A stretch of DNA of 64,000 nucleotides from Zygnema cylindricum (lineage: Eukaryota; Streptophyta; Zygnematophyceae; Zygnematales; Zygnemataceae): positions 250,001 through 314,000 of the forward strand of contig JBBHKE010000696.1 of the NCBI GenBank assembly GCA_037447655.1, written 5' to 3'. Shown here piece by piece: positions 13,954-53,436 of the stretch; position 1 is the first letter of the stretch, and each line of letters starts with the position of its first letter. Below the pieces are notes generated by a model that saw only the letters and a program-made list of their open reading frames with translations, did not search any database and was not told the DNA's origin. Made by a program: the position numbers and the translations under genes.

Positions 13954-14574
13954 ATGGCTACAACCGTCCCTCCTCCCTCTGGTACGGCTTCCGTACAACC
14001 TAATCCAGGACCTCCGTCAGCTGCTGTCGCTCGAGCTTTTCTCGCAAGACTCCATGAATCGGCAAAACTACATCTGGCGCAACAACGTCCCTGGCACGAA
14101 TTATACGACAGAAATACGCTTGGAAAACCCGAAGCATATGCTGACGCCATCAACCGAATCAAGAAAAATGCGAGCTACTTTAGGGTTAACTATTCTGTGG
14201 TACTTCTCGGTACAGTTGTCATCAGTATGCTGACGAGTCCTCTGTCCGTACTATGGCTTATCGCTTTGGTCCTCCTATGGGGATACGTTTTTATGGTCCG
14301 TACGGAGCCAATCGTTATCCTCGGCAAAACTTTGACCGATCCGGAGAAGTTCGTGGCTTTATGCGGAGTCTCTTTCCTTGTCGCTTTCGGTCTCACACGT
14401 GTCGGTTACACTGTTATGTCTGGTCTTACTATTGGTTTGGCGGCGGTGGTGATCCACGCTATTTTTAGAGTCCCTGACGACCTTTTTTTGGATGACCAAG
14501 ACGCCGGAGGATTTTTGTCGTGGCTCACACAACCATCGTCGTCACAGATGCCAGCTTCTATCGGACACGTGTGA
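13954..14574 (+). CDS. PRA1: PRA1-family protein (prenylated Rab acceptor)
   Basis: An intronless frame of 206 residues, the usual length for plant PRA1 proteins, which are small membrane proteins that bind prenylated Rab GTPases and act in ER/Golgi/endosome trafficking. Visible features are the N-terminal PWHELYDRNTLGKPEAYADA block (about residues 47-66), then NASYFRVNYSVVLL leading into two hydrophobic hairpins (about 74-110 and 126-165) separated by the RTEPIVILGKTLTDPEKF loop. The C-terminal tail is short and acidic (VPDDLFLDDQDAGGFLSWL). The ATG at 13954 is the first in frame after the pyrimidine-rich leader. In function it pairs loosely with the clathrin gene downstream, but nothing indicates co-regulation. 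Confidence 0.92.
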   Translation: MATTVPPPSGTASVQPNPGPPSAAVARAFLARLHESAKLHLAQQRPWHELYDRNTLGKPEAYADAINRIKKNASYFRVNYSVVLLGTVVISMLTSPLSVLWLIALVLLWGYVFMVRTEPIVILGKTLTDPEKFVALCGVSFLVAFGLTRVGYTVMSGLTIGLAAVVIHAIFRVPDDLFLDDQDAGGFLSWLTQPSSSQMPASIGHV

Positions 14575-17500
14575 TTGTACGACTGAGGAAGGTACTTATT
14601 TCTGTTTTTTTTTTTTTTTCGCAGTTTTTTTTTGGTGTTTTTTTTTTTTTTTTTTTTTTTTTTGGGTATGGAGTAACCGTTAATGTCACGTTGCCCTCTT
14701 CGATCGGACACGTTTGCTTATGGAGGCACTGAGAAAGGTGAGGTTTTGTTGTTTTTTGTCTGTTTTATTTTTTGTTTTTTTCTGAAAATTTGAGCTTTGT
14801 CACATCGGCCATCAAAAAGGTATATGAAAAAAGGTACCTGAAAAACGTGTTCCAATGGGGCTCAGCTTTTTATTTATGGCAGTATTGCAATTTTATTTAT
14901 CATTATATGTCAGTGGTGAAAAAGTAATGTATGTTCAACTGTACAACTAGGGTGGGTTAATGATTTTTTTGCTAATAATGTTGTGGTGTTTGTATATGAC
15001 TCACAGTTTAACTGGGTGAAAACAATGGGAACTCTATATGTGATTACCCCATACTTCAGTATTTTATGGTATAATATGCGTGTAGTATGGGCTGACCACC
15101 TATGGTGTTTCCTATGTTTTCGCAAATTTGAACTTTGATTTGACTTCCATTTTTCATAAAAGCTGTGGGTAGTCATTATTTTCCTCTGCCGGATCCGTGA
15201 GATACGTCAGAAAAGGGAGTTTAGTGACTTATCTTTTATCCCTTACAGTATCCGTATTATATGTAGTAACAATATATAGTGTTTCTATTTTTTTTTGCAT
15301 ATTAAACCTATGTATCATATGGTATAATACTTGTATAGTACGGGGGAAACCACATATAGCGTTTCCAATTGTTTGTCACATTTAAACTATCGTTCTTTGT
15401 CATCTCAGTTTTGCCATTCAATTAATTTTACAACTGGGAAATTTGTGATATTGGTTATTTCTGTTTTTTAGACGCATTTCATTAGAATTCGTTTTATATA
15501 GCTTTTTTTTTTCTTTTGTGGGATCAAGAGCCATAAATTCCTGCCATTCAGTAATTCTGTGATTCCTTGATTTGGTTCATCTTTTTTTTGTACTGTTTTT
15601 TTTTTTTTTTGCTATTTTTGAACAACTGACTTCTTTTATTTATTTATTTTGAAGTTCCTCATTTAAAGTAGGTTTCATTCTACGAATGGCAGTTTTAGGG
15701 TAAATGTTTTTCTTTTTTCTTTTAAAGTTTATGTTAACTGTCCAGCAGTATTTTTTTTCTGTTTTTTTTTTTTTTTCCTTTACATGTTAGCCTTTATGAA
15801 CAACACTATTGTCTGTTAGTTTTTGTAGTGACCTAATTTTTTTCTGGAAAAGCATAATCAAGAGTTACCGATAGCCATTGTGCAATCACGAGGTTTTTTG
15901 TTTTTATCTCTTTTGTTTTATGACTTTATTCCACATTTTTTGTCTTCCAGTTTAGAAACTTGGTGGTCTATTTTATGGAAACAAAACCCCTCAGACACCT
16001 TGTAAAACCCTGATTAAGTCGTTGTAGGTGTTCTTCAGAAAGTAAATTAGAGTAGTTTTGCTTAAACCAGGTTAATTGTGTGTTTTGCCCATTGTTATTA
16101 GAGTTTATAATACTAATTTGGTTGTGACATTTTTGGGCCGAAAATCATAAAATAGTGTTAACAAAGGGAGTGGACCTCAGTTTGTCACATCTCCTTGCAC
16201 AAAATTAGTATTATATATCATAACTTTGCACTAACATATTAAATTAGTATAATGTATTATACTGTCATATCAACACTAATAGATCCTTAATACTAATAAC
16301 GATGGGCAATGTAGTTGTGTGTTTTGGGTTTTTGACACTGTAAAAACTTTGTCTAAGGGTTCTACATTTTATATTTTACATTTTACACTATATAATCAAT
16401 TTAGAATTTTTAAATTTTAAATTCTTTTCGATTTGGGAATAAAGGGGAGAGAGAGAGCGAGGGCAGGAGAAGTCGTACATTTCAACATTTTCCATTATAA
16501 TTTTACATTCTATATTTTACATTTTCCTTCTCCTTTTGTACTGTCTCGTTTGATGTTATAATATGTAAATCAATAAATAACATGTAAATCAATAAATAAC
16601 AGTACACCGTCAACTGTGATAAGATTTTTTTTTTTTTTAGCTTCTTTTTTGTGGGTTTTTTTTTTAGTTTTATTAATTTTAATTCAAGTTCGTATTTGAA
16701 CTATTTACGGAATTATTGTTGTAAAAAAAAAGATTAGCATTATTAATTTTATTTTGTGGTTGCCAGGTCCAAAAACTAAATGAAAATCAAAGTGGAACTG
16801 AAATTAGTGTTATTGACGCTCTTCTTTCCTTTTTTGGTCCTTACCATGTTAGAATTAACTGACAGAAAGCTGTACAGCGGTTGGTTCTCTATACAATTTT
16901 TTTGTAACGAATCTAATTATTATTATTTTTTTTTTTTTGTGGTTTCAATGTGCTATCAACTAAAGCCTTTTTCTTTTTTGCTTTGTTTTATGGTCAAAAC
17001 TTACTGAACGCATATTGTTTACTATATATATATAAAAACGTATGTTATTAAATAAGTTCATTGAGAACAAAAATGTTGATCATAGAGTAGAGAGGTGTTA
17101 GTTCACTCATATTTAAAATTTTATCTACTGTGTCTGACCACTGTTCTAGGATGTTGTTGTCAAATGTTTTTTGTTTTTGTTTCACTTTTCTTGTTGGTTA
17201 ATGTTTGTATTTTTGTTTTTGTGTCACGGTGTTAATTGATTAATGTTTGTACCTTTTTTTTGTTTCTTTTTATTTCTTTTGCTTTTATTTTGTTTTGTCA
17301 CAGGTTCTGAATTTGAAATTCGACGGTTATAATCTTCACAACAATCCTTTTTTTTTTCGTGGATTCTACAATCTTCTTTGTATCATTTTGTACTCAAAAT
17401 GATGGACGAAAATGCATGAAAAGCTGTGATTCTTTAGTGTGACGAGTATATTTGGATAATCTTGTCTTCTAGAAAAAAGAGGAAGAAAAAAAAATAGCTG

Positions 17501-17590
17501 GCTAATATAAGTGTGTTTTTGTCTTTCCTTCCCATTATTTTATTTTTTTGGTCTCCAGTCAGCTTTCCTTGTTACAGTTTTTTCAAAGTC
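14575..17590. other. T-rich intergenic DNA between PRA1 and the bacterial island
   Basis: Long T runs (for example 14610-14662) dominate. No gene is supported. The sequence GGTATAATACTTGTATAG..CGTTTCCAATTGTTTGTCACA (about 15320-15380) recurs in diverged form near 15060-15130 and on the other side of the island at about 26825-26895, a dispersed repeat of unknown type. Confidence 0.5.
16087..16308. mobile_element. Possible small MITE with GCCCAT(T/C)GTTATTAG ends
   Basis: GCCCATTGTTATTAG near 16087 is mirrored by CTAATAACGATGGGC near 16295. A TA follows the right end, but no TA is preserved at the left. The end resembles that of the TA-flanked MITEs, so this may be a diverged relative. Confidence 0.4.
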
Positions 17591-17604
17591 AGTTAATATT
17601 AAAT

Positions 17605-18220
17605 GTTTAGATGTAATGGTTTATAGTTTTGTTGAAGATGTTGCAGCTTCTGGCGGATACTGGCTTGCTTGCAGTGATAATAAAATATTTGCTACTAACA
17701 GTTCAATTATTGGGAGTTTAGGAGTTATTTCAAGTGGATTCGGTTTTTATGGTGCTATAGAAAAATAAGGAATTGAGAGAAGGGTAATAACTGAGGGTAA
17801 AAACAAATCTGTTCTTGATCCTTTTCAGCCTGTAAAAGCTTCTGATGTAAAGCTGGTAAAGATCTACAGAAAAAAATATACGATCATTTTACGGATAGTA
17901 TTAAGGAACTAAGAAAAGGCAGACTTACCCAAACTGATGATATTATATTTAATGGTGAGTTCTGGACAGGGCAGAAAGCGTTGGATTATGGCCTAATTGA
18001 TGGAATAGACGATTTATATTCATTAATTGATGGAATAGACAATTTATATTCATTTATTTATAAAAGATATGGCAATGAAGTATAAATAGAATATATAGAG
18101 TCTCAGCAGTCATGGTTTAAAAGAAAATTCGGAATGGCACTTAGTGCTCAAGAAATCACAGATACTGTTCTTGATAGGGTAGAGGAAAGGTTTTTAACAA
18201 GTAAAATCGACTTATATTAA
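17605..18220 (+). pseudogene. sppA: sppA (peptidase family S49) C-terminal two-thirds, decayed
   Basis: SppA is a membrane-bound serine protease of the S49 family that degrades signal peptides. The N-terminus is missing. The catalytic Ser block is seen as VEDVAASGGYWLACS, followed by SSIIGSLGVISSGFGF and a Lys-containing GKNKSVLDPFQP. Defects are a TAA at 17766, a frameshift near 17855 and a TAA near 18083. A 30-bp in-frame tandem duplication gives LIDGIDDLYS/LIDGIDNLYS (about 17995-18055). The natural stop at 18218-18220 is directly followed by mid-murF sequence, so a junction lies here. Confidence 0.85.
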
Positions 18221-18711
18221 ATGAGCCTTAAGGAAAAAAACTACGTTGAAAAAGCTCTAGCGCAATTCAAACCTCAAATGGGAAGGGGGTTGATCGTGGA
18301 CATTAAGAAAGAAAATAAGGAATAATCTATAATAACTGATTACTATAATGCGAGTCCTGAATCCCTGAAAGCAGGTCTTGAGTATTTACATCAATCTAAA
18401 AACTCAAAAAAGAGCGCAATATTAGTTGACACGAAGGGGAATGGCAAGGACGAATTAAAGTTTCATTTCACCGCCATCCCATATATTGTTAAATCCGGTG
18501 TAAAGAAATTGTTTTTAGTGGGGGATATTATGCTGCAGCTTGTGCAAGAAATCCCAAAAAGTATTTTGGTTTAACCTATAAAAATTCTGACGCACTAGCT
18601 TACGATATTATTAAATACATTGAAGGTGAAGAGCTTATCCTAATTAACGGTTCAAGAGGTCTTCATCTGGAAAAAGTTGCCAAAGCTCCAGGAGTTACAA
18701 ATGCTTTATAA
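18221..18711 (+). pseudogene. murF: murF C-terminal domain, decayed
   Basis: MurF adds D-Ala-D-Ala to the UDP-MurNAc-tripeptide in peptidoglycan synthesis. Only the C-terminal ligase domain is present: ALAQFKPQMGRG, then DYYNASPESLKAGLEYL (the DxYNANP-type family signature) and KLFLVGD. A stop at about 18323 and a frameshift near 18540 break it. The final segment NGSRGLHLEKVAKAPGVTNAL ends with TAA at 18709-18711, overlapping the mraY start by 11 bases. That overlap preserves the bacterial operon arrangement. Confidence 0.85.
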
Positions 18712-19786
18712 ATCATTACTGCCATATACAAGTCATTGGCATATAGCCAATTTAATGACTTACATTACATTTAGAAGCGGTATGGCAATACTAAGTAGTC
18801 TGCTTATAAGTTTTCTAACAGGCTCGAAAATTATTCTGAAATTAAGGACGTTACAAAAACAAGGGCAACCAATCAGGGAAGACGGTCCGGATACTCATTT
18901 TGCTAAAGCAGGGACTCCTACAATGGGTGGGTTAATCATTATTAGCTCCATGTTATTTTCTATATTATTGTTTTCAGATCTTACTAACCCTTATAGGTGG
19001 ATAATTATTTTTGTTCTCATAATGTTCGGATTACTAGGTTTTTTAGATGGTTATACTAAAGTCAGCAAGTTTAATTACCGTGGTATCACGGGTAAAAAGA
19101 AGTTATTTTTGCAATTTGCTGTCAGTCTTATCGCATTTGGAGGTATAAAATATTGCTCCCTCCATTCCCATGCAACTGAGTTAGCTGTACCGTTTTTTAA
19201 AACCCTTTTGATCGACCTTGGTTATTTTTATTTTCCCTTTGCAATGTGCGTTATTATCGGTTCTTCTAATGAGGTAAATTTAATTGATGGTCTTGATGGT
19301 CTAGCTATTGGTACGCTAACAATAGCGGCTAGTGCTTTTGCTATTATTTCTTATTAGTAGGTAATTTTACTTCTGCAAATTATTGCAAATTATATATGTT
19401 CCACACGTTGGGGAGCTTGCCGTAGCATGTTCTGCGAAGGTGGGCAGTGGCCTTGGTTTTTTGTGGTATAACTGCAAACCTGCGGAAGCATTTATGGAGG
19501 ATACTGGAAGTTTATCTCTTGGGGCAGTTATCGGTACTAATAGCGTTATTACCAAACATGAAATTGTGCTGGCTACAATAGGAGGGGTGTTCGTTATTGA
19601 AACGTTATCGGTGATTATGCAAGTTTATTATTTTAAAATGACTAAGGGTAAAATATTTTTCAAAATGGCACCTATCCATCATCATTTTGAAAAGAAAGGG
19701 TGGCCTGAGACTAAAGTGTCATAAGATTTTGGATTTTAGCAATTGCTTTTGCTTTAATTGGGTTATCACCGCTAAAGTTAAGGTAG
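18701..19786 (+). pseudogene. mraY: mraY (phospho-MurNAc-pentapeptide translocase), near full length but frameshifted
   Basis: MraY makes lipid I, the first membrane step of peptidoglycan synthesis. The start MLYKSLLPY at 18701 fits the rickettsial N-terminus better than upstream codons. Conserved blocks are QPIREDGPDTHFAKAGTPTM, LGFLDGYTK, NLIDGLDGL, the later EDTGSLSLG and [11 protein letters not shown]. The family has Asp-Asp in LGFLDDYxK, and here the second Asp is Gly, which should abolish catalysis. Frames change after FAIISY (19355-19390), and a TAA with a frameshift near 19722 separates the C-terminus FWILAIAFALIGLSPLKLR, which ends at 19786. Mosses have nuclear plastid-targeted MraY, but this copy is intronless, has no transit peptide and sits among bacterial genes. 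Confidence 0.9.
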
Positions 19787-19792
19787 TTTCAT

Positions 19793-20470
19793 ATGTTTGG
19801 CGATAACTTTAAGCGTCCAGTGGTTAAAGGAAATGGTCAGTTTTTATCTATTAAAAGGATTTTTAAAACTTTACAAGCTGAAGGGCCTTATTGTGGAGTT
19901 CCAGCAATTTTTATTAGGTTAGGCGGATGTAACTTAGCTTGCAGTTTTTGTGATACCGAATTTGAGGATTATATAGAAAAATCTCTTGAAGAGATAATTG
20001 GGCAGGTTGAGTACTTAAGCAAAAATAGTAATAAAATACAGTCAATATTTCTAGTTGTCATTCACCGGAGGAGAACCATTTAGGCAGCCAATCTATAGAT
20101 TATGCGAAAAATTATTGCAATTAAATTACAAAGTGCAAATCGAGACTAATGGCACATTATATCAAGACCTTCCGGATGGAATTGGTATAATTTGTTCTCC
20201 TAAGGTAACGAACTTGAAATACCACGATATTAGAGAAGAGCTGTTGCCTAAAATTACAGCTTTAAGTATATTATATCTGAACACGTAGCAGGGTATAACA
20301 AAGTTCCGGAATTAGGCCAATCACTCTATAGCATACCGGTATTTATACTAGCAATGGACGAATATGATGGAAAGCGCAATAGTGCAAATAAGAAATTAGC
20401 AGTATCTATTGCTCTTGAGAATAATTATCGTTTATCATATCAGATTCACAAAGAACTGGGGATTGAGTAA
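19793..20470 (+). pseudogene. queE: queE (7-carboxy-7-deazaguanine synthase), two frameshifts
   Basis: QueE is a radical-SAM enzyme of queuosine precursor synthesis. The N-terminal FLSIKRIFKTLQAEGPYCG and the CX3CX2C cluster motif CNLACSFC (about residues 46-53) are intact. One frameshift near 20056 falls just before TGGEPFRQP. A second, near 20275, falls before YIISEHVAGYNKVPELGQ; the C-terminus YRLSYQIHKELGIE ends at 20470. The start is six bases after the mraY stop. Confidence 0.88.
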
Positions 20471-20568
20471 GCACGAGTAGTAGAATAAAATATATTATTT
20501 ACTCTACCTAAGTAAGGTTATAAAGTATAAATGCTAAGGTAATTTTTCAACTTAAAATTAATGTTACT

Positions 20569-21006
20569 ATGAAGCATGAAAAAATCGCTAATGTTTTGAA
20601 ATCGGTATTAGCGGATAGCTATAGTTTATATTTATAAACCCAAAACTTCCATTGGAATGTGACTGGACCTAACTTTAAATCGTTACATAGTTTATTCGAA
20701 GAACAATACACAGATCTTGCAAACGCTATTGATGAAATAGCTGAGCGAATTAGATGACTTGGACAAAAAGTACCAGGAAGTTTAAAATTCTACTCAGATT
20801 TAACATAAATATCGTCAAGCGATGAACATGCTGATTCAGCTACCGCGATCAGAGAGTTAACCAAAGGCCAAGATTTAATCATTAAAAATTTAAAAGCTAC
20901 CCTAACTATTGCACGGGCATTTGATGATGAAGGAACATGTGACCTTTTAATTGCAAGAATCAAAACGCATGAAAAAAATTCCTGGATACTTAAAAGCAGC
21001 ATGTAA
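20569..21006 (+). pseudogene. dps: dps/ferritin-like DNA-protection protein, three premature stops
   Basis: Dps proteins oxidise and store iron and protect DNA. The 146-codon frame is continuous and full length. It shows MKHEKIANVLKSVLADSY, the ferroxidase block [20 protein letters not shown] and [16 protein letters not shown], then a helical C-terminus. In-frame stops occur after SLYL, after AERIR and after FYSDLT. No frameshift is seen, so decay is by substitution. Confidence 0.85.
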
Positions 21007-21106
21007 GGTAGATGATAAGATTAATGTGTACTTTTTATGTAAGTAACTATAAGGTATTCCCTAAGCTGGAACAGAATTAAATTTATAGCATAGGGTTAGA
21101 TAAATA

Positions 21107-21148
21107 ATGACAAAGAAAGCAATAGTATTGGTAAGTGGAGGGGACTTA
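21107..21148 (+). pseudogene. queC: queC, first ~14 codons only
   Basis: ATG at 21107 opens MTKKAIVLVSGGDL, which matches the start of QueC (7-cyano-7-deazaguanine synthase), including the beginning of its SGG(A)DS ATP-binding loop. The match stops abruptly where glutamate dehydrogenase sequence begins on the other strand. It is short, but its position after queE and dps supports it. Confidence 0.5.
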
Positions 21149-23272
21149 GAACCAACCGGTACTATAACAGCATTCTTAGCCATCTGAGCCTTCATCAAGC
21201 CCAGTACTTCTAATCTATAATCTTCTCCCCTATCTGACCACCGAATTCCTCCTCGTGCAACCTTCCCACCCCTAAGGTGGATACCTTCAAATTCATTAGA
21301 ATAAATAAAAATTTCGGCATAAGGTCTTGGCAGCGGTAGGTCTGGCACTTTATACGAATCAAATTTAAAAGAAATATAAGGTTTTATCGCATCATCTCTG
21401 GTTTGATAAAAAATAGTTCTAGTAGTCGCCTTAATGGTTTGATACATATTACGCAGGACTTTATCTTCCGTGCTGTTTGAAACTACATCAAGGTAATTTT
21501 CCAGGTCCTTACCAATAAATTTTGCCAGTTTTTTTGAATATAATTCAGGATCGAATAATGCACTGAAAAGCTTCACGAGCAGTTCTGTAAATTTATAATG
21601 TTTTATTAAAGTTAGCTGAGCATATACCTTTTCATACGAAATAACGGTTTGATGTAAATATGTTGTTAAAGCCTTCAATAAATAATTTTTTTGCCAATCC
21701 ATACCGGAAATAACAAGTAACTTGCTTAAAGAATCGGTTGAGAATATACCCTCGTTTATTTTCTCAAGAGCTACTTCGATATTTTCTTTAACACGCTAAA
21801 TGGAATTTCTATTTCCATCTGGCTTGCTAAAATAAATTCATAAATCCAACTCTGTTTAATTTGAGCTGTCTCTTTAGTTATAAAACTTTGCTCATCAATG
21901 GCTATAAAACCTAAATTCTCAATAGCAGGCAAAGTATCAGAAAGAGTTAAAAATACAGACGGACTGTAAATTAAACTCCGAAGGTGATTTTTGTAAGAGA
22001 TTAAAAACGGTTTTGTTTAAATCTGAAGCTTTTTTCAGGTTGTTAATATCCTCAATTGTAGCACTTGCATTAAATTTATGCTTTTACTCAGGAGGAAAAG
22101 CAGATTCTAGCTGCTTGTGTTTAAGCCCCCCTTCGCACTCTCCATATTTTTCGCATAACTTCTCTGATAAAGAATGTAGTAATTTTTATTAAATCTTCTT
22201 CTAGTTCCTGAGGGATAAAATTGAGCTTTCTTTTATCTTTTACAGAAATAGTAGCAAAAAGGTGAGAGAAATCCTGAGCTAGTACTGTTATATTATCGGT
22301 AATAATCTCACTATCAAACTTTTGTGACAGATAGTTACTAATTGTCTTATAAACATCTGGGGTGAGACGATTCCTTGGCATAAAAATGATAATATTAATA
22401 AAGGATCCGGCCCAATCTTGCTGAATAAATAATTTTATTTTTTGCTACGCATGCTTGAAAGCATATGAAGACACATACAATACAAATCGGTTTCATCAAT
22501 TTGGATTAAAGTATCACGAGGTAAAGATTCGATAATGTTTTTTAGCTTTTTCGAATTGTAACTGTTTAAAGGAAACCCTGATTCGTTAAGTACATAATTC
22601 ATCTTTCCCCGCAAAATAGGTACACTTTTTATAGATTGGTAATAAATTGCCATTCCGTAAAGTCCAAAAATTATGCTACCTGAATTATATTCCCAATTTT
22701 CATCTAGATCCTTAATTAGAATATAATCTACAAGGGCATTAAGATGCACCGGCGATACTTTATTAAGCTTACCAAGTATTGCCAGTTTGTTAGAGTAATA
22801 ATCCCTTTTAGAAAACTCTATTATAACCTTCAAGTCCTCTTTATTATCTTGCCAAATATCTTTTACCCCATCTTCATGGGTTATTTGCATGGAAGAAAAT
22901 ATCAAATTCAACCATGCCAAGGAAAGTAAAATGATCTTTCTGTAACCAATTTAGGAAATCAAGAGCCTATTCAGTAGGCAATCCTGACATCTTTATGGCG
23001 GACTATCTCAGTAGTTCCGGCAATTAACTTATTTAGTAAAGTTTGCCAAGAGTTATAAGTATAATCGACTAAATCGATAATTTCATTTATTTCTTTTTTT
23101 AAGATTTGTATGGTTTCTTCATTAGAATTTCCAAGAGCTTTAATAAACACTAACGATTCTCTTGAAGCCTCTTCACCTGTCGAAATAATCTCAATTAAGT
23201 TGCCGTTTTTATCTCTTTTAGAAAAAACCGCAGGATGAAACGTAAAAATAGTTTGCAGCCCCAGTCTTGATA
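21149..23272 (-). pseudogene. NAD-specific glutamate dehydrogenase (large bacterial type), truncated and decayed
   Basis: This belongs to the large (about 1600-residue) bacterial NAD-GDH family that converts glutamate to 2-oxoglutarate. From right to left: FTFHPAVFSKRDKNGNLIEI, IIDLVDYTYNSWQTLLNKLI, the block at 22920-22435 (NIIESLPRDTLIQIDETDLY), the block at 22381-22121 (MPRNRLTPDVYKTISNYL) and the start of the dehydrogenase domain at 21702-21150 (EFEGIHLRGGKVARGGIRW, LGLMKAQMAKNAVIVPVGS). Several stops and frameshifts lie between blocks. Both ends are cut: the right at a leuS junction (about 23273) and the left at the queC junction (about 21149), so most of the catalytic half is absent. 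Confidence 0.88.
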
Positions 23273-23360
23273 GTGGTTTTTGGGACTTATTGTCTGAAAC
23301 AAAAGCGTTGCCCTTATCCCAGGCTTTTTGTCATTTCTCCTCCATTTCTTTGATATTCAT
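23273..23360 (-). pseudogene. leuS: leuS, first ~29 codons only
   Basis: ATG at 23360 begins MNIKEMEEK, stop, QKAWDKGNAFVSDNKSQKP. This matches the leucyl-tRNA synthetase N-terminus (EEKWQKxW...), with the Trp codon changed to TGA. It starts 12 bases after the DUF3576 stop, the gene order common in alphaproteobacteria. Sequence changes to glutamate dehydrogenase directly after KP. Confidence 0.65.
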
Positions 23361-23372
23361 AGGAATATATGA

Positions 23373-24503
23373 TTATTTATCTGCCTGGTATAAAGCTCTT
23401 GCTTTTCTAAATGCTGCCAATAGCAGATTCTTTATACTCTGTTGATCATTTATTCCCGATTTTAGTACGCTCATAGGCTTTCACGTCTACTGCTTCAGAA
23501 CTTATCACTTCATCCTTAATGAACACATTAATTTTAAATTGAGTATTAGGTTGTCCTTTAGGGTTATACCATTGGGTAATTATTACTCCACCAATACTAT
23601 CTGCTGAAGTTAACGGTGCGAAATCAAGTACGTCTAGGGCTGCCTGGTAAAGATACTTGTTTGCATTACCAACCTTTGATTTTGTGGCAGTACTTTTGGT
23701 TTTACCTGGCGAACCCTACTTCAGCTACAGTTGTTGGTCAGGCGGCTCGACATCTTGGGGTGGCAGCTCGTGATGCTGCTAAGGCGAAGGAGCGTGATTA
23801 TGCCAATCGGGACCCTATGGATGACTTTATCCCGATGGCGGTCGAGATCTTTGGTTGTTTGGGTGTTGCACTGGACGAGTTTCTCCGTACTTGTGCTCGA
23901 CGTGCGTTCGAGCGTCGAGGACCTGGGAGCCCTCCTCCTTCGGTCCTTACTTCTTTTTATCGTCAACGCTTATCTGTGGCTCTACAACGGGTGCAAGCTT
24001 CTATTCTCCTCCGATCGGCTGTTGCGGCTATGGATCGTCGCCGTGCTCCGGAACTCCCTCAACGTGCTCCTCCGGGCTGGGGGGACTTACGGGGTTGTTT
24101 TTCGTAGGTATTTAATTGAGTTAGGGTTGGGGTTGGGGTTTGTATTTTTGTTTTTGTGAGTTGTCGTGCTTTTCATTTTGAGTTAGGGTGTTTTTATTTT
24201 CCTTGTTGTTGCTTCCTTTTTTTAGGGTGTGTTCTTGTCGCTTTTTTTTTTTTTTTTTTTTTTTTTATTATTGTTGTTTTTCAGTGTTGGTCATGCCACC
24301 CCTTTTGTACCCCCAGACTCAGATGGTTTACCATCGTGCTTTTTAATTTATCCTGCAAGTTCAAAAACAAGTCCTTCTCCTTGAAGTAGAGACCCCATTT
24401 CGTCCGTCTCTGTCTCAACCCTTGATTTTGGATAATCTCCGGATAAACTAGAAATTATATATGATAATAATACAAATAAGAATGAGAAAGACTTAAGTTT
24501 CAT
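23373..24503 (-). pseudogene. DUF3576 family lipoprotein gene, split by a LINE
   Basis: The N-terminal exon-like piece (24503-24357) begins MKLKSFSFLFVLLSYIISSL, a signal sequence, then SRVETETDEMGSLLQGEGL. The remainder (23706-23373) continues with VGNANKYLYQAALDVLDFAP, GGVIITQWYNPKGQPNTQFK and VNVFI-type sequence, ending ARALYQADK after a stop and a frameshift. DUF3576 proteins are small envelope proteins of unknown function, typically encoded just before leuS in alphaproteobacteria. The 650-bp insertion between the two parts is a plus-strand LINE. Confidence 0.8.
23707..24356 (+). mobile_element. 5'-truncated LINE fragment inserted in the bacterial DUF3576 gene
   Basis: Starting with TGGCGAACCCT, it encodes the same C-terminal region as the LINE at 47849-49590 (SATVVGQAARHLGVAARDAA, then DPMDDFIPMAVEIFGCLGVA). 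It carries the same 3' UTR end, including GATGGTTTACCATC and TTTATCCTGC. The shared sequence ends at 24356. No clean target duplication is seen. The fragment's coding frame is partly kept (23707-24110). Confidence 0.9.
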
Positions 24504-24610
24504 AATGATAAATAGATTATAATTTAGAATATTTTTTGTTTGCATTAATATTAGGAATATAATGCTTTTTATAAATAATACAACTAAAAAGGAAAAAAAT
24601 AGCAGTATTA

Positions 24611-25766
24611 TTATAAATTACTTATTAATTCTGTTTCAAGCATTAAGTGGCACACCATTGCTCCAAAAGCTTCTGCTGATAATTCTTTTAAAATAACGCT
24701 TCTTATAGGTGGCTTTTTCAAGCTAAGAGCGTTGATGGTTGCAGTAAAGTTTGCTTTATTAATATCAGAGAGTTCTTTATGGGCTAAATATCCGAATTTA
24801 TTTAAATTGCTTGTCTTATACTCTCCTACCTCTTGGCTAATCTTCTCTAGATAAAAGAAACTAAAAAGTTTATCTTGTGGTCCTTCTAAATATAGTTGCA
24901 GCATACTATGTTGATGGTTTGGTCCTAAACCTTTTAGAGGTGTATAACCTTTACCGTTCTTACCTAAAGATTCCGCAATAATTTGGGAATACCATTCTAA
25001 AAATGGCAAAAACCTTTGTAGATAACCAATATTTACCAGCGTGTTTTTATTTGAATAATACATGGAACTTGCGCTTAACATGGCTTTGCTTCTAGCTGAA
25101 GTAGAGCAGAAATCATCGATAACCTTGTTTGCGCCGGAAATGTAAGATAGCATATCAATGCCTGCGATCAGCCCAATTAATAGAGAAACAGAAGAAAGCC
25201 CAGAATATCTTCCACTAATTCCTTCTTGATGAGGAATGAGAGTAGCTCCTATTTCCATAGCTATATCTTTTAATATGCCGGCTTTAAGGTTAGCAATAAA
25301 AAATGATCGCAAGCCAATATCTGTAATGTTATGTTTCTGATATTCTCTCAGTAAACATCCCACTAAAGCATTAGTTTCTAAAGTTTCTCCGGAATTGCTA
25401 ATTGCGATAAAGGCAGTATTTTTTTATCTCTATTATGTCCATGAGATCGGCAAAGAAAAACGGATCAGAGTTATTTAAAAAATGTATTTTGGCGGAATTT
25501 TGATCTTGTCCTAGAAAACTTACCAACATCTGAGGATTAAGACTTGCCCCTCCCATACTCATAACAATTAGATCAGAAAATATATTTATAATCTCACTTG
25601 CTACTGCAATAAGGTTTTTAAGTAACTCCTGCAGTTCATGCTTTTTGAAAATCTGATAGTAGGAGTTACCAGATTCTATATTATTTACTATAGCCTTTGC
25701 CGTCGAAGATAATAAATTATTGTCTTGTTTCCGAGAATCCAAGTTATAATATTTTATTTCGTACAT
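24611..25766 (-). pseudogene. pgi: pgi (glucose-6-phosphate isomerase), nearly intact, one frameshift
   Basis: Pgi interconverts glucose-6-phosphate and fructose-6-phosphate. The start MYEIKYYNLDSRK is at 25766. Blocks are LIVMSMGGASLNPQML, AISNSGETLETNALV, GISGRYSGLSSVSLLIG (active-site region), GPNHQHSMLQLYLEGPQDKL and KELSAEAFGAMVCHLMLETE. The only break is an extra A in a run of A at about 25420-25426, which shifts the frame just before NTAFIAISN. The length, about 385 codons, fits the short alphaproteobacterial form. It is the best preserved gene of the island. Confidence 0.88.
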
Positions 25767-25815
25767 ATTTTGTGCTATTTTGTAGGTGATGTTATATTAC
25801 AAAGTCCAGCAAGAA

Positions 25816-25997
25816 TTAGTATCCACCTAATTTAAGTTTTCTTAGTAGCCAATCTACATTAACTCCAATATCCTCAAAAGCAGTTTCCCACTTTTCTGCT
25901 TGCTTGATAATTTGAGTATAAGGTGGGAAGTGATCATTAGTAGCAAGTATCACTCTATTGTTGGAAGTTAAATTGGTAATACTGTTAAAGTGTTCTT
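25816..25997 (-). pseudogene. C-terminal fragment of an unidentified bacterial protein
   Basis: An open frame of about 60 codons ends at TAA 25816-25818, just upstream of pgi. It contains NNRVILATNDHFPPYTQIIK and EDIGVNVDWLLRKLKLGGY. I do not recognise the family. Composition and position make it the right end of the island. Confidence 0.45.
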
Positions 25998-26000
25998 ATA

Positions 26001-26959
26001 GAGTTGTGACTCTAATCAATAACGTTAAATTTTTTACCAAAACATTAACAAGGGTCTTAAATTTATATTAATATTTACATTGTATTAATTTTATTGTATT
26101 ATTTCTATTTCTATAGTTCATAATAGTACTGCTCACATATTAAAACCCCTCGGAAACGTAGCACTATCGTACGCCTCCTCTGTGCCTTTCGTTAGCTCGG
26201 AGAACAAGTCGACCTTCTCAAAAATTAAAAATATCTTATAAGTTCTGGTGAGTTTTTGACGAAACCGTTGAACCACAAGACCAAAATTTGGTCAATACAT
26301 TCTATCATGACAAAATTAGTGTTTTAACCGGTTTAAAGTACATACTACACGTGCAATCTAGTTCATACAATATATACACTTTATTTTATGATTTGAAATA
26401 TGATTCAAACATACCAACATCAAAGAAAACCCTGACACTAACAACATTATGAACTACAAGAATGTATACTAAAACCACATTCACACTAATACAGACTCTA
26501 TGTTGTGAAATAGTCAGAAGAGAGGAACTGTAAACTTTTTGAAGTTGTGAACTTGTGGAACAAAGCCAAAACAGACTTTGAAAAAATGGGCACATACTTT
26601 TAATACAAACAGAAGGGGTTGCTACAATAAAAACTGTCAAAGATGGGAGAACCAAGCAAAAAACAACACATGGCAGCCATAAAACTAAACATAATTCGGT
26701 TAAGACTGTTGCTAACGGCAGCAGTTCGATACAATAGATCACCGTGGCAGCTAGACCAACTAAGTTGAAATGTGAAGAAACAATAGGAAACTCGACCTGC
26801 AGTAAACCCATACTTTACACATATAATACAGTATAATACGCGTATGATGTGGGGTGAAGTCATATTACGTTTCCAATTGTTTTTGCACATTTGAATCACG
26901 GGACAAGCAGCCTCAAGTGAGCCGGGTGTTAAACATAGACCACAGCACAGAAAAAACAC
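26001..26959. other. Intergenic plant DNA right of the island
   Basis: AT-rich with no supported gene. A diverged copy of the dispersed repeat seen near 15060-15380 lies at 26825-26895. Confidence 0.4.
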
Positions 26960-42300: not shown

Positions 42301-45300
42301 AATGTTGTGTTTGTTCTTTCTTCCTCACACGTGTTATGTGACAGGTATGTGGTGGAGAGAATGGAGCCTGTTCTGTGGGCGAAAGTGTTGGATCCAGAGA
42401 ACCCTTTCCGCAGGCAGCTTATTGATCAGGTATTCCAGTTTTCGTGAGAGCTGCACTCCTGACCCCTCTTTTTACAAGTACCCGAGACTTTTTGTTATCG
42501 TTATTGCACCTCCTGTTTTTGACTGTCGCTTTAAGACCATAAAAATACTAAATCTATGTTAGCGATGTTTCTGGATTGCAGGTGGTTTCTACAGCTTTGC
42601 CAGAGAGCAAAAATCCTGACCAGGTGTCAGTGACAGTGAAGGCATTCATGACAGCTGACCTTCCTCATGAACTTATTGAGCTTTTGGAGAAGATTGTCCT
42701 CCAGAACTCAGCTTTCAGTGGAAACCCGAACTTACAAAACTTGCTCATTCTGACAGCTATTAAAGCAGACACAACTCGAGTTATGGATTATGTGAACCGC
42801 CTCGACAACTTTGATGGACCTGCTGTGGGAGAAATTGCTGTTGGGAGTGAACTTTACGAGGAGGCTTTTGCGATCTTTAAGAAGTTTAGCCTCAATGTGC
42901 AAGCTGTTAATGTTCTTCTTGATAACCTTGGAAGTATTGACCGGGCTGTGGAATTTGCAAACCGTGTTGAGGAAGATGACGTGTGGTCTCAAGTTGGAAA
43001 AGCCCAGCTTAAAGAAGACTTGGTTTCTGATGCTATTGCTTCCTTCATCAGAGCTAATGATGCAACTCAATTTCTCGATGTCATTCGTGCTGCTGAAAGA
43101 GTGGACGCATATCATGACATGGTCGATTATTTGGTAATGGTTCGCAAAAAGGTGAAAGAGCCAAAGGTGGATGCAGAATTGGTTTACGCATATGCAAAGA
43201 TTGACAAGTTGGGCGAGATTGAGGACTTTATTCAGACACCACATGTGGCAAATCTCCAAAGTGTGGGAGATAGATTGTTTGACGAGCAATTATATGAGGC
43301 TGCCAAAATTGTTTTCACTCATATTTCTAACTGGGCCCGACTGGCTAGCACTCTTCTTAAACTCAAGCAGTTTCAGGCTGCGGTTGATGCTGCCCGGAAG
43401 GCAAATAGTGCCCGAACATGGAAAGAAGTCTGTTTCACATGTGTTAACGAGGGAGAGTTTAGGCTTGCTCACCTTGCAGGTCTCAACATCATTGTCCAGG
43501 TATGTTCACTCGTCCACGAACCCCTTATCCGTTGTATATACATTTTCACCCTTTTTAATGCTTTTTTTGGGCCTTAGCCTGTATGTAGTGGATATTGTTT
43601 GTTGGAATACCGAGGAACAAGTTGTGATTGTGATTGCTTCCTGAGGTATTTTTATCTGTTCGTTTCCTATCCAGAGTGCATACAATGTCAACCACTGGGC
43701 TGTGTGTAAAAATTTTGTTGTCATTTGGCAGTTTCTTGCCATGTTTTAATCTGGCCTGTTGGTAGAAAAGAGTGTACATTTCCTGCATTTCCTTTACCAG
43801 TTTTTCTCTCTCTGAATTCTAGCCTTCATAGGATACGGTCATTAAATTTCGCTGGGTTGGTGCGAAACTTTTGTGTATTTCTGTTAACATATATGCATAT
43901 TCTCTGGGCTTGTTGTCACTCAATTTCCCATACAGGTTGATGACCTTGAGGAGGTTTGCGACTACTATCAAAACCTTGGTCGCTTTGATGAACTTATCGC
44001 TCTTTTGGAGAGTGGTCTTGGTTTGGAACGGGCTCATATGGGTATATTCACTGAGCTCGGAGCATGTTACGCACGTTATAGGCCCGAGAAACTCATGGAA
44101 CATATCAAACTTTTCTCCACTCGCGTCAACATTCCCAAACTCATTCGCGTCTGCGATGAACAGCAACATTGGAAGGAACTTACCTTTTTGTACATCACAT
44201 ATGATGAATTTGACAATGCGGCAACGACAATCATGAGCCACTCTCCTGAGGCTTGGGACCACTCCCAGGTAAAAGACTGCTTTTTTTGCCATTTTTTAAG
44301 ATGCCTGTTGTTTATTATGCATGGTTGCGAATATTGAACATTCTGGATGGGAGTAGTTCCTTTCAGTGGTGGTAACTTAAAGTATAGAAATAAGTGAGTT
44401 TGAGATGTACCATTTTTTTTTGCTAAATCCTATTCCTATTTCGCACAGTTTAGTTATGTAAAGAAGACAAAGTCATGAACATCATTAATTTGAGAGAATC
44501 ATATCGCTTATGCTTATCAAGTTTTCTGGTTGCAGTTCAAAGACGTCACGGTTAAGGTGGCGAATCTGGAGCTATATTACCGGTCAATCCAGTTTTATCT
44601 TCTGGAACATCCTGATCTCATCAATGACCTTCTCAATGTGCTTGCTCCTCGAGTAGACCATACAAGAGTGGTGGATATGATGAAGAAGGTTTGTCCACTT
44701 TCTCAAAGGTTCCATCATCCTCTTTTGTGAAGGTTTCATTATCCACTTTCTTAAAGATTTCACGCAACTATTGTTGGATGCCTTTTTGCAGAAATGGTGG
44801 ACGGTTTCTGTAAGTCCTCGTGAAGTGAATGTCATTTGTGGGGCTCGGAAGAAATTGATGTTTGAGATCATCCTCGTTCAATCTGCAGTCAATTTTCATC
44901 CTTTGGTGCCTTATTTTCTTTTTGCCTTTTTGGATACGACAGGCTGGACATCTGCCTCTTGTGAAACCGTATTTGGTGGCGGTGCAAAGCAATAATGTGG
45001 CTGCTGTCAATGAAGCTCTCAATGCTCTCTACATTGATGAGGAAGACTATGATCGCCTTCGCGAATCAATTGATATGCACGACAATTTTGACCAGATATC
45101 GTTGGCTCAGAGGGTGAGTCTGCAGGAGTGAAAATAGGGTCATTTTGCTTTCATTCTTTTTGGAAGGGTGTCGTTGGATGGTTGTATCAGGGAAGCATAG
45201 GAAAACATCTTGAGATTATTAGATAGATGTTCCACATTATTCTTTTTGGTTCTTACTATGGTGTAAGCATTTACCCTGCCTGTTTCCCAAACTTCATGGC

Positions 45301-47848: not shown

Positions 47849-49590
47849 GCAGGATAAATTTAGAAGCACGATGGTAAACCATCCGAGTCCGGGGGTACAA
47901 AAGGGGAGGCATGGCCAACACATAAAAACTACCAGGGCAATAAAACTAAAGAGAGCAATGGGAACAACAACAAGGCAAATAAAAGCACACAAACCCAAAA
48001 TCAAAAGCCTGGCAACACACAAATCCAAAACCACAACTTTAACACCAACTCAATTATCTATCTATGAAAAGCAACCCCGTAAGTCCCCCCAACCCTGGGG
48101 AGCACGATGAGGGAAGTCCGGAACACGGCGACGATCCATAACCGAGATAGCCGATCGGAGGAGAATAGAAGCCTGCACTCGCTGTAAAGCCACAGATAAG
48201 CGTTGACGATAAAAAGATGTAAGGACCGAAGGAGGAGGGCTCCCAGGTCCTCGGCGCTCGAAAGCACGTCGAGCGCAAGTTCGGAGAAACTGGTCCATTG
48301 CAACACCCACACAACCAAAGATCTCGACCGCCATCGGAATAAAGTCGTCCATAGGGTCCCTGTGAGCATAATCACGCTCCTTCGCCTTAGCGGCATCACG
48401 AGCCGCCACCCCAACATTTCGAGCCGCCCGTCCAACAACCGTAGCCGAAGAAGGGTTTGCCAAAACAATATCACCGAAAATGCGACGGGCACCATCAAGC
48501 AAAACAACATCGATCCGACGTGATGGAATAATGTGAGAAACCTCCCGACGCACAGAAAAGCCCCCCTCCGAAGCGATAGTCGCAACAACGTCGCGAATAG
48601 TGTCGTGCGCCTGGATCAAATCCCCCCCATGGGAGCAACGAAGCAGATGGACACCATCGGGCGCCAAAACACGACCACATGCACAAACAAGAGAGCCAAG
48701 TAAAGGAGGATGGGGGAGGCCAAGGCGAAATCGAAGGGCGGTGGTGAATTGAGCAGGTGAGAATCGGAGAGTGGACAAAATAGGTGTAGCCAAAAGCCAA
48801 GATCCAGAACCTGGTCCACCACAAGAGAGAAGACGGGCACGCGAAGAATCAGAGGGAAGCGCCTTAAGAAGGTCAGATTTAATGGCGGCGACAACCCGAT
48901 CGGAAATTGATTCCTGGACACACTCAGCGGAGGTGGTAACCAAGGTGGAGAAAATCGACATATCCACTAGGGCATGGGGAGGAAGAGAACGTGATGCGTC
49001 CAATAGAGTCCGCTGGAACGCTAACACACCGTCTGAAACGCGGGGGACAACAATAGCTAGATCAGGGGTGTCCCCAGCCAAAAAAGGGGAAACAAGGGTA
49101 GATGCAATAAGACACCAACTTCCCAAATAGGCAGCGGGAGCAACACGAGCAGTCGATAATAGACCCAACCCTCCGACAGATACAAGGAGGGAAGCCTGAA
49201 TGCGGGCTGAGGGCCCGGACTCGCGATCCAATGCCCTACGACCTAAAAGAGTGTGGAGGACGTCCATGAGGCGATCGTCAAATGCCGCAAGAGAGGAGAC
49301 GAACGTCGAGGTGGGAGGGGAAGTACGAGTGAGGTAAGAAGGGCGATGGGGAAAACACCTGGTTAACATAGCAAAAGCCACTTGGGGATCGTGAAGGTGA
49401 GGAAGGTCGTCCACCTGGGCCGAATCTGTCTGTAAAGCATCATGAAGGAATTGGGTCACGAAAGTATCCGAACCAAGGGGGCAACCTAGCACACGAATGC
49501 CATCGGAAGGAGAAGGGGTTTGAAAACCAAGAGGGGGGGTAAAGGAAGGTGAAGGCTTTATGTTAAGCCATGACCATGAGTTTTCCACAT
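47849..49590 (-). mobile_element. 5'-truncated LINE copy with C-terminal endonuclease-like region
   Basis: The 3' end is at 47849 (GCAGGATAAA on the plus strand), with the hairpin GATGGTTTACCATC 22 bases inside. The 5' end is near 49590, where the coding frame begins mid-protein. The same 3' UTR and C-terminus occur in the fragment at 23707-24356. Confidence 0.88.
48062..49588 (-). CDS. LINE polyprotein C-terminal part (508 codons): post-RT region, zinc-finger-like motif and RLE-like endonuclease
   Basis: The frame is open over 508 codons, but the RT palm is absent: it begins after the catalytic core at GIRVLGCPLGSDTFVTQFL. Further on it has a Cys/His cluster CACGRVLAPDGVHLLRCSHG, then RIDVVLLDGARRIFGDIVL followed by AKAKERDY. 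The pattern R/P-D-V ... D-V/I ... K..Y resembles the restriction-like endonuclease (RLE) that follows the zinc finger in R2-group LINEs. The assignment to an RLE type is inferred from motif order. Stops are lacking, which suggests a recent insertion. Confidence 0.7.
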   Translation of the reverse strand: MENSWSWLNIKPSPSFTPPLGFQTPSPSDGIRVLGCPLGSDTFVTQFLHDALQTDSAQVDDLPHLHDPQVAFAMLTRCFPHRPSYLTRTSPPTSTFVSSLAAFDDRLMDVLHTLLGRRALDRESGPSARIQASLLVSVGGLGLLSTARVAPAAYLGSWCLIASTLVSPFLAGDTPDLAIVVPRVSDGVLAFQRTLLDASRSLPPHALVDMSIFSTLVTTSAECVQESISDRVVAAIKSDLLKALPSDSSRARLLSCGGPGSGSWLLATPILSTLRFSPAQFTTALRFRLGLPHPPLLGSLVCACGRVLAPDGVHLLRCSHGGDLIQAHDTIRDVVATIASEGGFSVRREVSHIIPSRRIDVVLLDGARRIFGDIVLANPSSATVVGRAARNVGVAARDAAKAKERDYAHRDPMDDFIPMAVEIFGCVGVAMDQFLRTCARRAFERRGPGSPPPSVLTSFYRQRLSVALQRVQASILLRSAISVMDRRRVPDFPHRAPQGWGDLRGCFS

Positions 49591-51137
49591 TTGCAGTTAA
49601 TCAGGAAGGTCTGAATAGACTTCTTGGTACCACGTTGTCGCTCATGGACTGTCATGTAGTTATGGTTTTAAACCCGGTTAATATCTATTTTTAGTGCTAA
49701 ATCAATCTATTGGAGAAGGCTCACAAAATTTATAAGAGATATCAGAATATCGTTAAACTCAGCTCCAGCATGCGGAGGCATCCGATGAAGAAATTGTTGT
49801 TAGATGCTATTTTTGACAATAATTGTTTAAAGCTGCTGAGCACTGTTGCTTGACATAAGTGTTTGCGGCAGATACTGTGCACTTCAACAAAGTAATGTCA
49901 GTTATTCACCTTTGTCATTGGGATATCTTCTAACTACTGCTTTGAATCGGCGCATGTCGGTAAGCGATTTATCGGTAGCCATCGCGAGGTGTTGCACACC
50001 GATGTGGACAGAACCTTCCTGGATATGCAAACAGCAAAGAAAAATATGCGCAGTTCGAAAAATATGTGCTACAAGGCTCGTCAGATATTGCCAAGCGGTT
50101 GTACTTCCAGTACACCCTCTATCGTTATTAGTGTTCATGTTTTTCTTTGCCACGTAAAACATCTTTACTCTGTACACATTTGTCAGATTTGGGATTTGAC
50201 GGTTGCGATTGAAAGCCAAGATCCCCACCTTCCGATTGGCGATCTCTATGTGAAAATCGGACAAGTGTGTACAAAGAAATGATGTTTTAAGTGGCGAAAA
50301 ACTCATTAACACTCATAGCGATACACGGCGTAGTTTAGGGTTGTGTACCTCACATGGGGTGCCGATAATGTGGTCTGCCGTTGTGTGCATGGGAGGTGAC
50401 TTCCATAGAATAGAAGGATGGAAGGTGATTTTAATAGAATCGACGGATGGAGGTGATTTCCACACAATGACATAAAGGAGGTAATTTCCACATAATCTTT
50501 TATATTCAATTTCTATAGGTTTCCTATCGATTTCGTATAAACCTTAAAGACATTAAAATTTAGTGATATAAACTCTCCGAAATTTTGCTTAATTTAACTT
50601 TTACAAGAAGGAAAAGAGTATCCATATTGCGATCATTGGATAAGGAAAAAAGCTCCCTTTATTTTTATCACATTTCCAATGGAAAGGGAAAAAACAATTA
50701 GCAGTTTTATTTGTTATAAGAAAACACCATTGAAACACTATTTCTTTGTTTTAACAGTTAAAGAGTAAAAAACAAAAATGGATACACATTAACAATGTAG
50801 ACTAAGATGAATATAACTGCAATTTAATTCAGCATTTTTTTCACTTTTAGAGGAAAATAGACTTTACCAGAAACCAACTAGATTCCAAAATATATTTTAA
50901 CTATTTTTTTGGTCTGCCAATGCACACTACAAAGTACAGAAAACAACCTTAAGAAATTAAGAAACAAGTTTAAGAAATTACCATTTTTTAAAATGGAAAA
51001 TTTGGAAAAATAAAAAATAAACACCGGAAGGCACAATGATTCATTTGTAACGGAAGCCTTTTTTTTATTTATTCTTTAATTGAAAAAAGAGAACAAATGG
51101 TACTTTTTCACATCGAAAATGCGCGAAACTCCAGGAG

Positions 51138-52109: not shown

Positions 52110-53436
52110 TTACGCTACGAAAACCTCCCCGCGTCCGTACGGTACGGTTCCCGCCCCCGAGTCCAGACACTCCAGCCACCCGCCGACATCCAATTCGCCG
52201 ACTTCCGTCAAATATTCACCTCCGGCCGTCAGATTTTCCCCGCCGGCCGGCTTCCAGCCGTCAAAAAGTCCCAATTCCAAAAGGGATCGTTTCCCCTTCG
52301 ACAAAAAATTACCGGCCGGCCGTTTCTCTTTCCCGCTCTCCGTCAAATCAGCTTGCTTCCTTTTCACACCGGAAACTGCCACGTGGACCTCTCCGCCTTC
52401 TTTCACAACCACTCCCTTCTTCTCTTCCCCTCCTCCTCTTACCTCCCTCTTCTTATCTTCCCCCGTCCTCTCTCCTCCTCTCTCTCCTCCTCTCTCTCCT
52501 CCCCTCTCTCCTCCCCTCTCTCCTCCCCTCTCTCCTCCTCTCTCTACCCTCTCTCTCCCTCTCCCTCCCTCCACCCCAGATCCCCTATCCCTGCTGGCCC
52601 TCAAGCCCTTAACCTCGGCCTGGAGCTGCGCCATCTCAGATCTCAGCCGTTGATTCTCCTCGCTCGCCTTCCGAGCTTGGTCGGTGGCATCCCGGAATTT
52701 CCGGAATAGGGCGGCATGTTCCACTCTCAGGGCGGCCGCCTGTCTCTCCAAAGCCCCCAGGCGCTCCTGCCGCCTCTGCCGCGACCGCTTCGCGGAAGCT
52801 CTATTAGAAAGCATCCTGCAAAACGACAAAAATAAAAAAAAAAACGCCAACAGAAAAACGGTCCAGCGTCAGTTATACGCAACGGAATTTCGATTTTTGA
52901 AACGTGGGTATTTTCTTGAACCCGCTTTCGGAAGTGGGTTTTGAAAAAGAAACGGTAATATTATTTGTTACTAATAATATTAGTGTTATTATTATTATTG
53001 TTATTGTTATTGTTGTTGTTGTTTTTTGGTTTTGTAATCGGGGGTGGAGGGAAGGAGAGGGAGAGGTTTTCTACCTGCGTAACCGTTTGGGATCCTGTAC
53101 GGCTTGCTCTCCTCCGTCCTCGTCCGTTCCTTCTGCGCTGTCAGTTCTTTGTCTCATTCGGTCGCTGACGTCATCACCGGCATGGTCGCAGGGCGAATCC
53201 CGGGTGTCTGTCGCGGCGTGACACGTGTCACACGAGTCGAGAACCGACGCGGAAGCATCCTCGGCCGCGGGGGAGAGCTGAGGCGGCAGCATGTTCACCA
53301 GCCACTGTTCGAGTTCGGTCACACGTGTGGAGGGATGCGGCCAGAGGCCGGTGGCTGGTGGGGAAGAGAGGATAGGGTTGTCAACCGCAGAAGACACGTG
53401 CCAAGCACTAGGTCCAAAATGGGGAGCCATGGACAT
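52110..53436 (-). CDS. bZIP transcription factor (group C-like), two exons, 355 residues
   Basis: Exon 1 is 53436-53075 and exon 2 is 52815-52110, with a GT..AG intron in consistent phase (1068 nt). The intron falls inside the basic region, which reads KRLRR|MLSNRASAKRSRQRRQ. The leucine zipper follows (LGALERQAAALRVEHAALF...RLRSEMAQLQAEV). The KRxRRMLSNR basic region and the zipper spacing resemble plant group C (Opaque-2/CPRF2-like) factors. Exon 1 has an acidic Ser/Thr-rich activation-like region. Exon 2 has a run of six ERGG repeats (12-bp period) and a basic KRKQ patch. The product should act in the nucleus on ACGT-core DNA sites. Confidence 0.9.

Follow-up and report, generated by a model that had tools for sequence, protein, structure and literature searches.

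A decayed patchwork of Candidatus Megaira DNA in the nuclear genome of a probably zygnematophycean alga

The stretch of 64,000 nucleotides headed above (hereafter the window) carries, at positions 17607-26050, an island of 8444 bases that comprises about 7.8 kb of bacterial DNA and a host element of 650 bases. The bacterial part aligns with four distant intervals of the complete chromosome of Candidatus Megaira MegNEIS296, from Mesostigma viride (CP084576.1; PMC9098888), with 7303 of 7734 bases identical in ungapped alignment (94.4%, far above chance), and every one of the eleven genes that it touches is broken. We read the island as Megaira DNA that was captured in four fragments in an algal nucleus, decayed there, and was later hit by a host element resembling a long interspersed nuclear element (LINE), a reading to which we assign a probability of roughly 0.93.

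Architecture, gene content and donor

The whole window was compared by blastn with the MegNEIS296 chromosome. The search returned six rows, all within the island and together representing the donor intervals 371267-371866, 1253021-1250128, 546219-548376 and 934439-932214, the last of which is broken up in the island by the LINE-like element and a 75-base deletion; in the rest of the window, no further match to the Megaira chromosome was found at an E-value of 1e-3. These non-adjacent donor segments are joined through fillers of 15, 4 and 2 bases at three joints, as in a concatemer, in the following order:

17607..18234, + strand: piece 1, 3' part of sppA (signal peptide peptidase); Megaira 371267-371866
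18235..18249: filler of 15 bases, joint 1/2
18250..21141, + strand: piece 2, 3' third of murF, mraY (18701-19786), queE (19793-20470), dps (20569-21006) and the first 35 bases of queC (from 21107); Megaira 1253021-1250128
21142..21145: filler of 4 bases, joint 2/3, from queC codon 12 into the interior of the NAD-GDH gene
21146..23272, - strand: piece 3, interior of the NAD-GDH gene, 718 of 1597 codons; Megaira 546219-548376
23273..23274: filler of 2 bases, joint 3/4, from the NAD-GDH interior to leuS codon 29
23275..23710, - strand: piece 4a, first 28 codons of leuS and 3' part of DUF3576; Megaira 934439-933987
23707..24356, + strand: host LINE-like element, 5'-truncated, within DUF3576
24363..24631, - strand: piece 4b, 5' part of DUF3576 and 3' end of pgi; Megaira 933984-933710
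24632..26050, - strand: piece 4c, remainder of pgi and 3' end of a 271-residue open reading frame; Megaira 933634-932214

At joint 1/2, the sequence passes from 15 bases beyond the sppA stop codon into murF, and each of the three joints is flanked by at least one cut gene, with cuts inside murF, queC, the NAD-GDH gene and leuS, so that bacterial gene order cannot account for them. The left breaks in murF (piece 2) and leuS (piece 4a) recur when the island is compared with a second Megaira-like metagenome-assembled genome (MAG), ErkenSummer bin-4287 (comparison records L081 for piece 2, L002 and L003 for piece 4a), in which the DNA from either side of the LINE-like element is contiguous to within 3 bases. 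A single contiguous transfer is ruled out by the four donor intervals.

The identities of sppA, murF, mraY, queE, the large NAD-GDH, DUF3576 and pgi are backed by NCBIfam and Pfam matches, that of the NAD-GDH through the Pfam domains GDH_ACT1/2/3 and HM1. The NCBIfam scores lie under the whole-protein cut-offs, because the pieces are gene fragments, and the Pfam matches of NAD-GDH and DUF3576 lie over theirs. The ferritin match of dps is likewise below cut-off (E-value 2e-4), but the gene aligns over its full length with a Megaira gene, and the two stubs, queC (35 bases) and leuS (28 full codons), were identified by alignment to the Megaira chromosome. The eleventh gene, at the right edge, is the end of the 271-residue frame, which has no assigned function. 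No 16S rRNA was recognised within the island. The original prediction, which had described a single bacterial block of 8.4 kb at 17590-26000 with at least ten genes or fragments, nearly all disabled, thus located a real bacterial island and named all ten genes correctly, as profiles or Megaira alignment confirm. It understated the damage, which extends to all eleven genes when truncation is counted, and it set the edges slightly off and missed both the joining of four pieces and the host origin of 650 bases.

Its proposal of a donor in the Rickettsiales can now be sharpened. The best protein match of the pgi piece has 91% identity (among the best 120 of 424 matches) and that of mraY 95% (among the best 120 of 169); those of the listed matches that carry an organism name, a minority, belong to Rickettsiaceae, Rickettsiales bacteria or a Rickettsia endosymbiont, with the exception of one labelled Janthinobacterium and one labelled Pseudomonadota. 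When genome contigs were scanned with the pgi alignment, at least six loci were found, CP084576.1 being the best among the matches listed (91%); no relative turned up when viral contigs were searched with the pgi piece. In a pgi tree of 42 rows, the check that the original prediction had proposed and the one gene tree made for the donor, the window piece falls inside the Megaira clade, grouping with MegNEIS296, P0001 and P0003 at a support of 99/94; the only row labelled Rickettsia in it is a MAG named "Rickettsia sp." (L003), no named Rickettsia proper being included. The Mesostigma symbiont has been assigned to Megaira clade A (PMC10132079), and judged by sequence comparison the donor is a Ca. 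Megaira close to this strain. Rickettsia proper as donor was set aside on the 94.4% identity to the Megaira chromosome, in a comparison made without named Rickettsia genomes.

Decay of the transferred genes

With the frames that are open in the Megaira chromosome as reference, the eleven genes together carry 12 premature stops and 18 frameshifting insertions or deletions besides truncations. Six of them are truncated by a joint or an edge, DUF3576 is split by the LINE-like element and pgi lacks 75 bases. Lesions noted gene by gene include:

sppA: 5' truncation, two premature stops, one frameshift and a 30-base insertion at about 18012
mraY: three frameshifts
queE: two frameshifts
NAD-GDH gene: two stops and six frameshifting insertions or deletions
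leuS stub: one stop
DUF3576, 3' part: 17-base deletion and a premature stop
pgi: 75-base deletion between 24631 and 24632, and a frameshift in piece 4c
End of the 271-residue frame: two stops and three frameshifts

Judged by eye from the sequence, the 30-base insertion in sppA resembles a tandem duplication.

Between the island and Megaira, 85 of 2463, 87 of 2465 and 237 of 2463 sites differ at codon positions 1, 2 and 3, respectively. We polarised the differences with the Erken MAG as outgroup over 4479 coding sites, taken from piece 4 and from the part of piece 2 that runs from murF into dps, and found 37, 46 and 72 changes at the three positions specific to the island, as compared to 18, 9 and 46 specific to Megaira (Fisher test, p = 0.003 for position 2 against 3 and p = 0.023 for positions 1 and 2 against 3). 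Coding constraint is thus relaxed on the island branch only. When a two-phase model is fitted, the neutral component comes to 0.023 (within 2 log-likelihood units, about 0.015-0.031), preceded by a bacterial phase 0.72 times as long as the Megaira branch, and the absence of a neutral phase (m = 0) is rejected with a likelihood ratio of 30.9. Mutation rates are about 1e-9 per generation in Chlamydomonas and 7e-9 per year in land plants, and at such rates the neutral decay would have lasted roughly 10^5 to a few 10^6 years.

Few changes at codon positions 1 and 2 in mraY (8 and 14 of 361 sites) and queE (6 and 3 of 226) could suggest that a gene was useful after transfer and decayed recently, or that some fragment is transcribed or functional now. 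We regard this as highly improbable, as mraY and queE carry three and two frameshifts, none of the eleven genes is intact, and, over the pooled sites, neutral decay following a bacterial phase fits without further selection; a functional transfer was rejected since the island holds no intact open reading frame.

Insertion into the host nucleus

In the assembly, the bacterial DNA is bounded on both sides by host DNA of the same contig, in which two genes serve as flank markers:

13954..14574, + strand: PRA1-family protein, 3.0 kb left of the island
42552..43577, + strand: exon of clathrin heavy chain, 16.5 kb right of the island

The PRA1 protein groups with Mesotaenium and Closterium (14-row set, support 85/96, below the starred level), and on this one gene tree the host is probably a streptophyte alga of the zygnematophycean lineage. 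None of 107 PRA1 homologues is identical to the protein of the window. Mesostigma NIES-296 was weighed as host and is improbable, since the PRA1 gene sides with the other two genera. A matK search had no match in the assembly and none in 14 control genomes, which makes it uninformative on the host. Elsewhere in the window, an open frame with a bZIP domain lies at 52110-52868 on the minus strand, and a host repeat (67-75%) occurs on either side of the island, at 15019-15386 and 26765-26895, the match at 26895-26765 being inverted.

The host element within the island, 23707-24356, matches a longer copy in the window, 48462-47849 on the minus strand, at 82%, and shares its 3' end (...TTTATCCTGC). 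In a search of the assembly, in which 40 of 2388 candidates were scored, we found at least 42 matches, namely the element itself, a further 39 at 93-96% and a weak pair (74 and 78%), the nearest other copies being 96% identical. Given these many copies, it is a host repeat that landed in the bacterial gene DUF3576. We call it LINE-like from its 5' truncation, its shared 3' end and the appearance of an open frame. The longer copy extends over 47849-49600 (minus strand) and has a frame of 512 residues, in which no Pfam match was found; a further match, at 58435-58324 on the minus strand, is partial and more distant (71%).

Because its genes are broken, constraint on them is relaxed and a host LINE-like element is nested within it, the island is best read as a heritable nuclear insertion and not as contamination. 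The nuclear graveyard that the original prediction had seen here is upheld by the flanking host genes, the eleven broken genes and the nested element; its further placement in a plant germline needs correction, as the host is probably zygnematophycean and not a land plant, which makes "germline" a loose term.

A Ca. Megaira symbiont resident in an ancestor of the alga would have released DNA, of which four linear fragments from distant places of the chromosome would have been ligated end to end and captured in one event at a single nuclear double-strand break, presumably by non-homologous end joining, with the fillers of 2-15 bases arising at the joints. As a passenger of no use, the DNA would then have decayed neutrally (about 2.3% neutral divergence), accumulating stops, frameshifts and deletions, the host LINE-like element would later have inserted into it, and the symbiont itself would have been lost at a later time. 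Mitochondrial and plastid DNA that becomes nuclear is likewise joined end to end with short fillers, forming concatemers in which distant donor pieces meet at one nuclear site; the island has the same joining pattern, its donor being a bacterium instead of an organelle.

Several observations weigh against this sequence of events. Both outer edges of the island are read from the assembly, the polarised set of 4479 coding sites is drawn from two of the four pieces, and the noncoding sites, only 230 in number, have no excess of changes on the island branch (7, against 8 on the Megaira branch). A target-site duplication was sought around the LINE-like element and no clear one was found. The gene order of the donor is read from MegNEIS296 and that of the true donor could differ, yet joints inside genes would still not be bacterial gene order. 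Finally, several successive insertions may have taken the place of one capture.

The DNA could also have arrived through an intermediate, such as a virus, a plasmid, an organelle or another eukaryote already carrying the patchwork, and not directly from a resident Megaira. This route has no positive support, although a resident Megaira was not observed in the assembly; the pieces match Megaira right up to the joints, where the 2-15 intervening bases leave no space for vector sequence, and repeated direct exposure would better account for the additional Megaira bits in other contigs, so we consider this route improbable. That an assembler joined a contig of living Megaira to an algal one is very unlikely, too: Megaira does live in algae and its genome has been recovered from an algal sequencing project (PMC9098888), but here all eleven genes are broken, constraint is relaxed on the island branch only, joints lie inside genes and a host repeat is nested within. 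In addition, two 20-kb probes (40 of 1448 kb) detected no intact Megaira stretch in the assembly, whose bacterial contigs may have been filtered out prior to deposition.

The island, as nuclear Megaira DNA, has a counterpart of the same type in a different algal lineage: in symbiont-free strains of Volvox carteri, the nuclear genome contains pieces of rickettsial 16S, murB, ddlB and ftsQ along with the transposon Jordan (Kawafune et al., 2015; PMC4324946). Both are rickettsial DNA in a green algal nucleus, mostly of incomplete sequences, with a host transposon in the same stretch, and they are alike in size (6.28-6.29 kb in one Volvox type). In contrast to the present island, in which no gene is intact, some Volvox strains keep intact murB, ddlB and ftsQ frames; conversely, the present case stands apart by its host, probably a streptophyte, by the 94.4% identity of its donor to a sequenced Megaira, by the fusion of four non-adjacent loci with fillers, by a two-phase divergence estimate and by bits in other contigs. 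Insertions of Wolbachia DNA in the nuclear genomes of arthropods and nematodes (PMC4299567, PMC3849323) are a further instance of Rickettsiales symbiont DNA moved into the host nucleus, with many large transfers mentioned in PMC4299567, as opposed to a small patchwork from Megaira in an algal host, and another algal precedent is the gene transfer involving eustigmatophytes (PMC6092422). In the passages of PMC9098888 and PMC10132079 that were covered, we saw no mention of Megaira DNA in the nucleus of a streptophyte, and none was recognised in the titles and abstract openings of the wider literature, which included few subscription journals. Being clean and datable, the patchwork would show the same symbiont-to-nucleus traffic in the lineage next to the land plants. 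It demonstrates that a single site in the nucleus can receive several segments from widely separated parts of a symbiont's chromosome and, as a molecular fossil of a Megaira symbiosis, it can be screened for in other strains.

Megaira-like matches elsewhere in the assembly

We judge it an even chance that Megaira DNA lies scattered through the genome as the product of repeated transfers of differing ages, among which the 94% island would be the youngest and largest seen with the two probes, whereas the bits in other contigs (100-300 bases, 75-90% identity) would be older. If true, symbiont DNA would be streaming continually into the nucleus in the algal group that is sister to the land plants, leaving a datable record of a symbiosis of which the assembly itself gives no sight. 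The assembly of 352,776,454 bases in 2689 contigs, in which piece 2 (2.9 kb) occurs once, at the window, was searched with two of the 73 chunks of 20 kb of the Megaira chromosome, 920001-940000 and 1240001-1260000. The former has matches in eight contigs besides the window and the latter one other match (99 bases, E-value 2e-16), while a non-donor control, one 20-kb piece of another alphaproteobacterial MAG, gave one weak match (66 bases, E-value 4e-5) besides the pgi of the window. It is because the second chunk equals the control in number of matches, exceeding it in strength only, that we go no further than even odds.

Five of the nine outside matches are firm in our judgement:

C457:17272-17576: 305 bases, 83%
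C17:131335-131473: end of DUF3576, 84%
C2108:56355-56456: 102 bases, 90%; the match runs to the end of the probe and may extend beyond it
C135:31766-31879: 114 bases, 75%, beside a frame that we take to be rpsO
C666:722435-722533: within a 749-codon frame, presumably ftsK

Such short Megaira-like stretches (75-90% identity) are probably older insertions. The remaining four could be conserved genes of the host or simply weak: the C1005 match, a conserved stretch of leuS, may be a host leuS, those in C1285 and C931 are weak and cover the same 60 bases, and that in C1848 is weak as well (73%).

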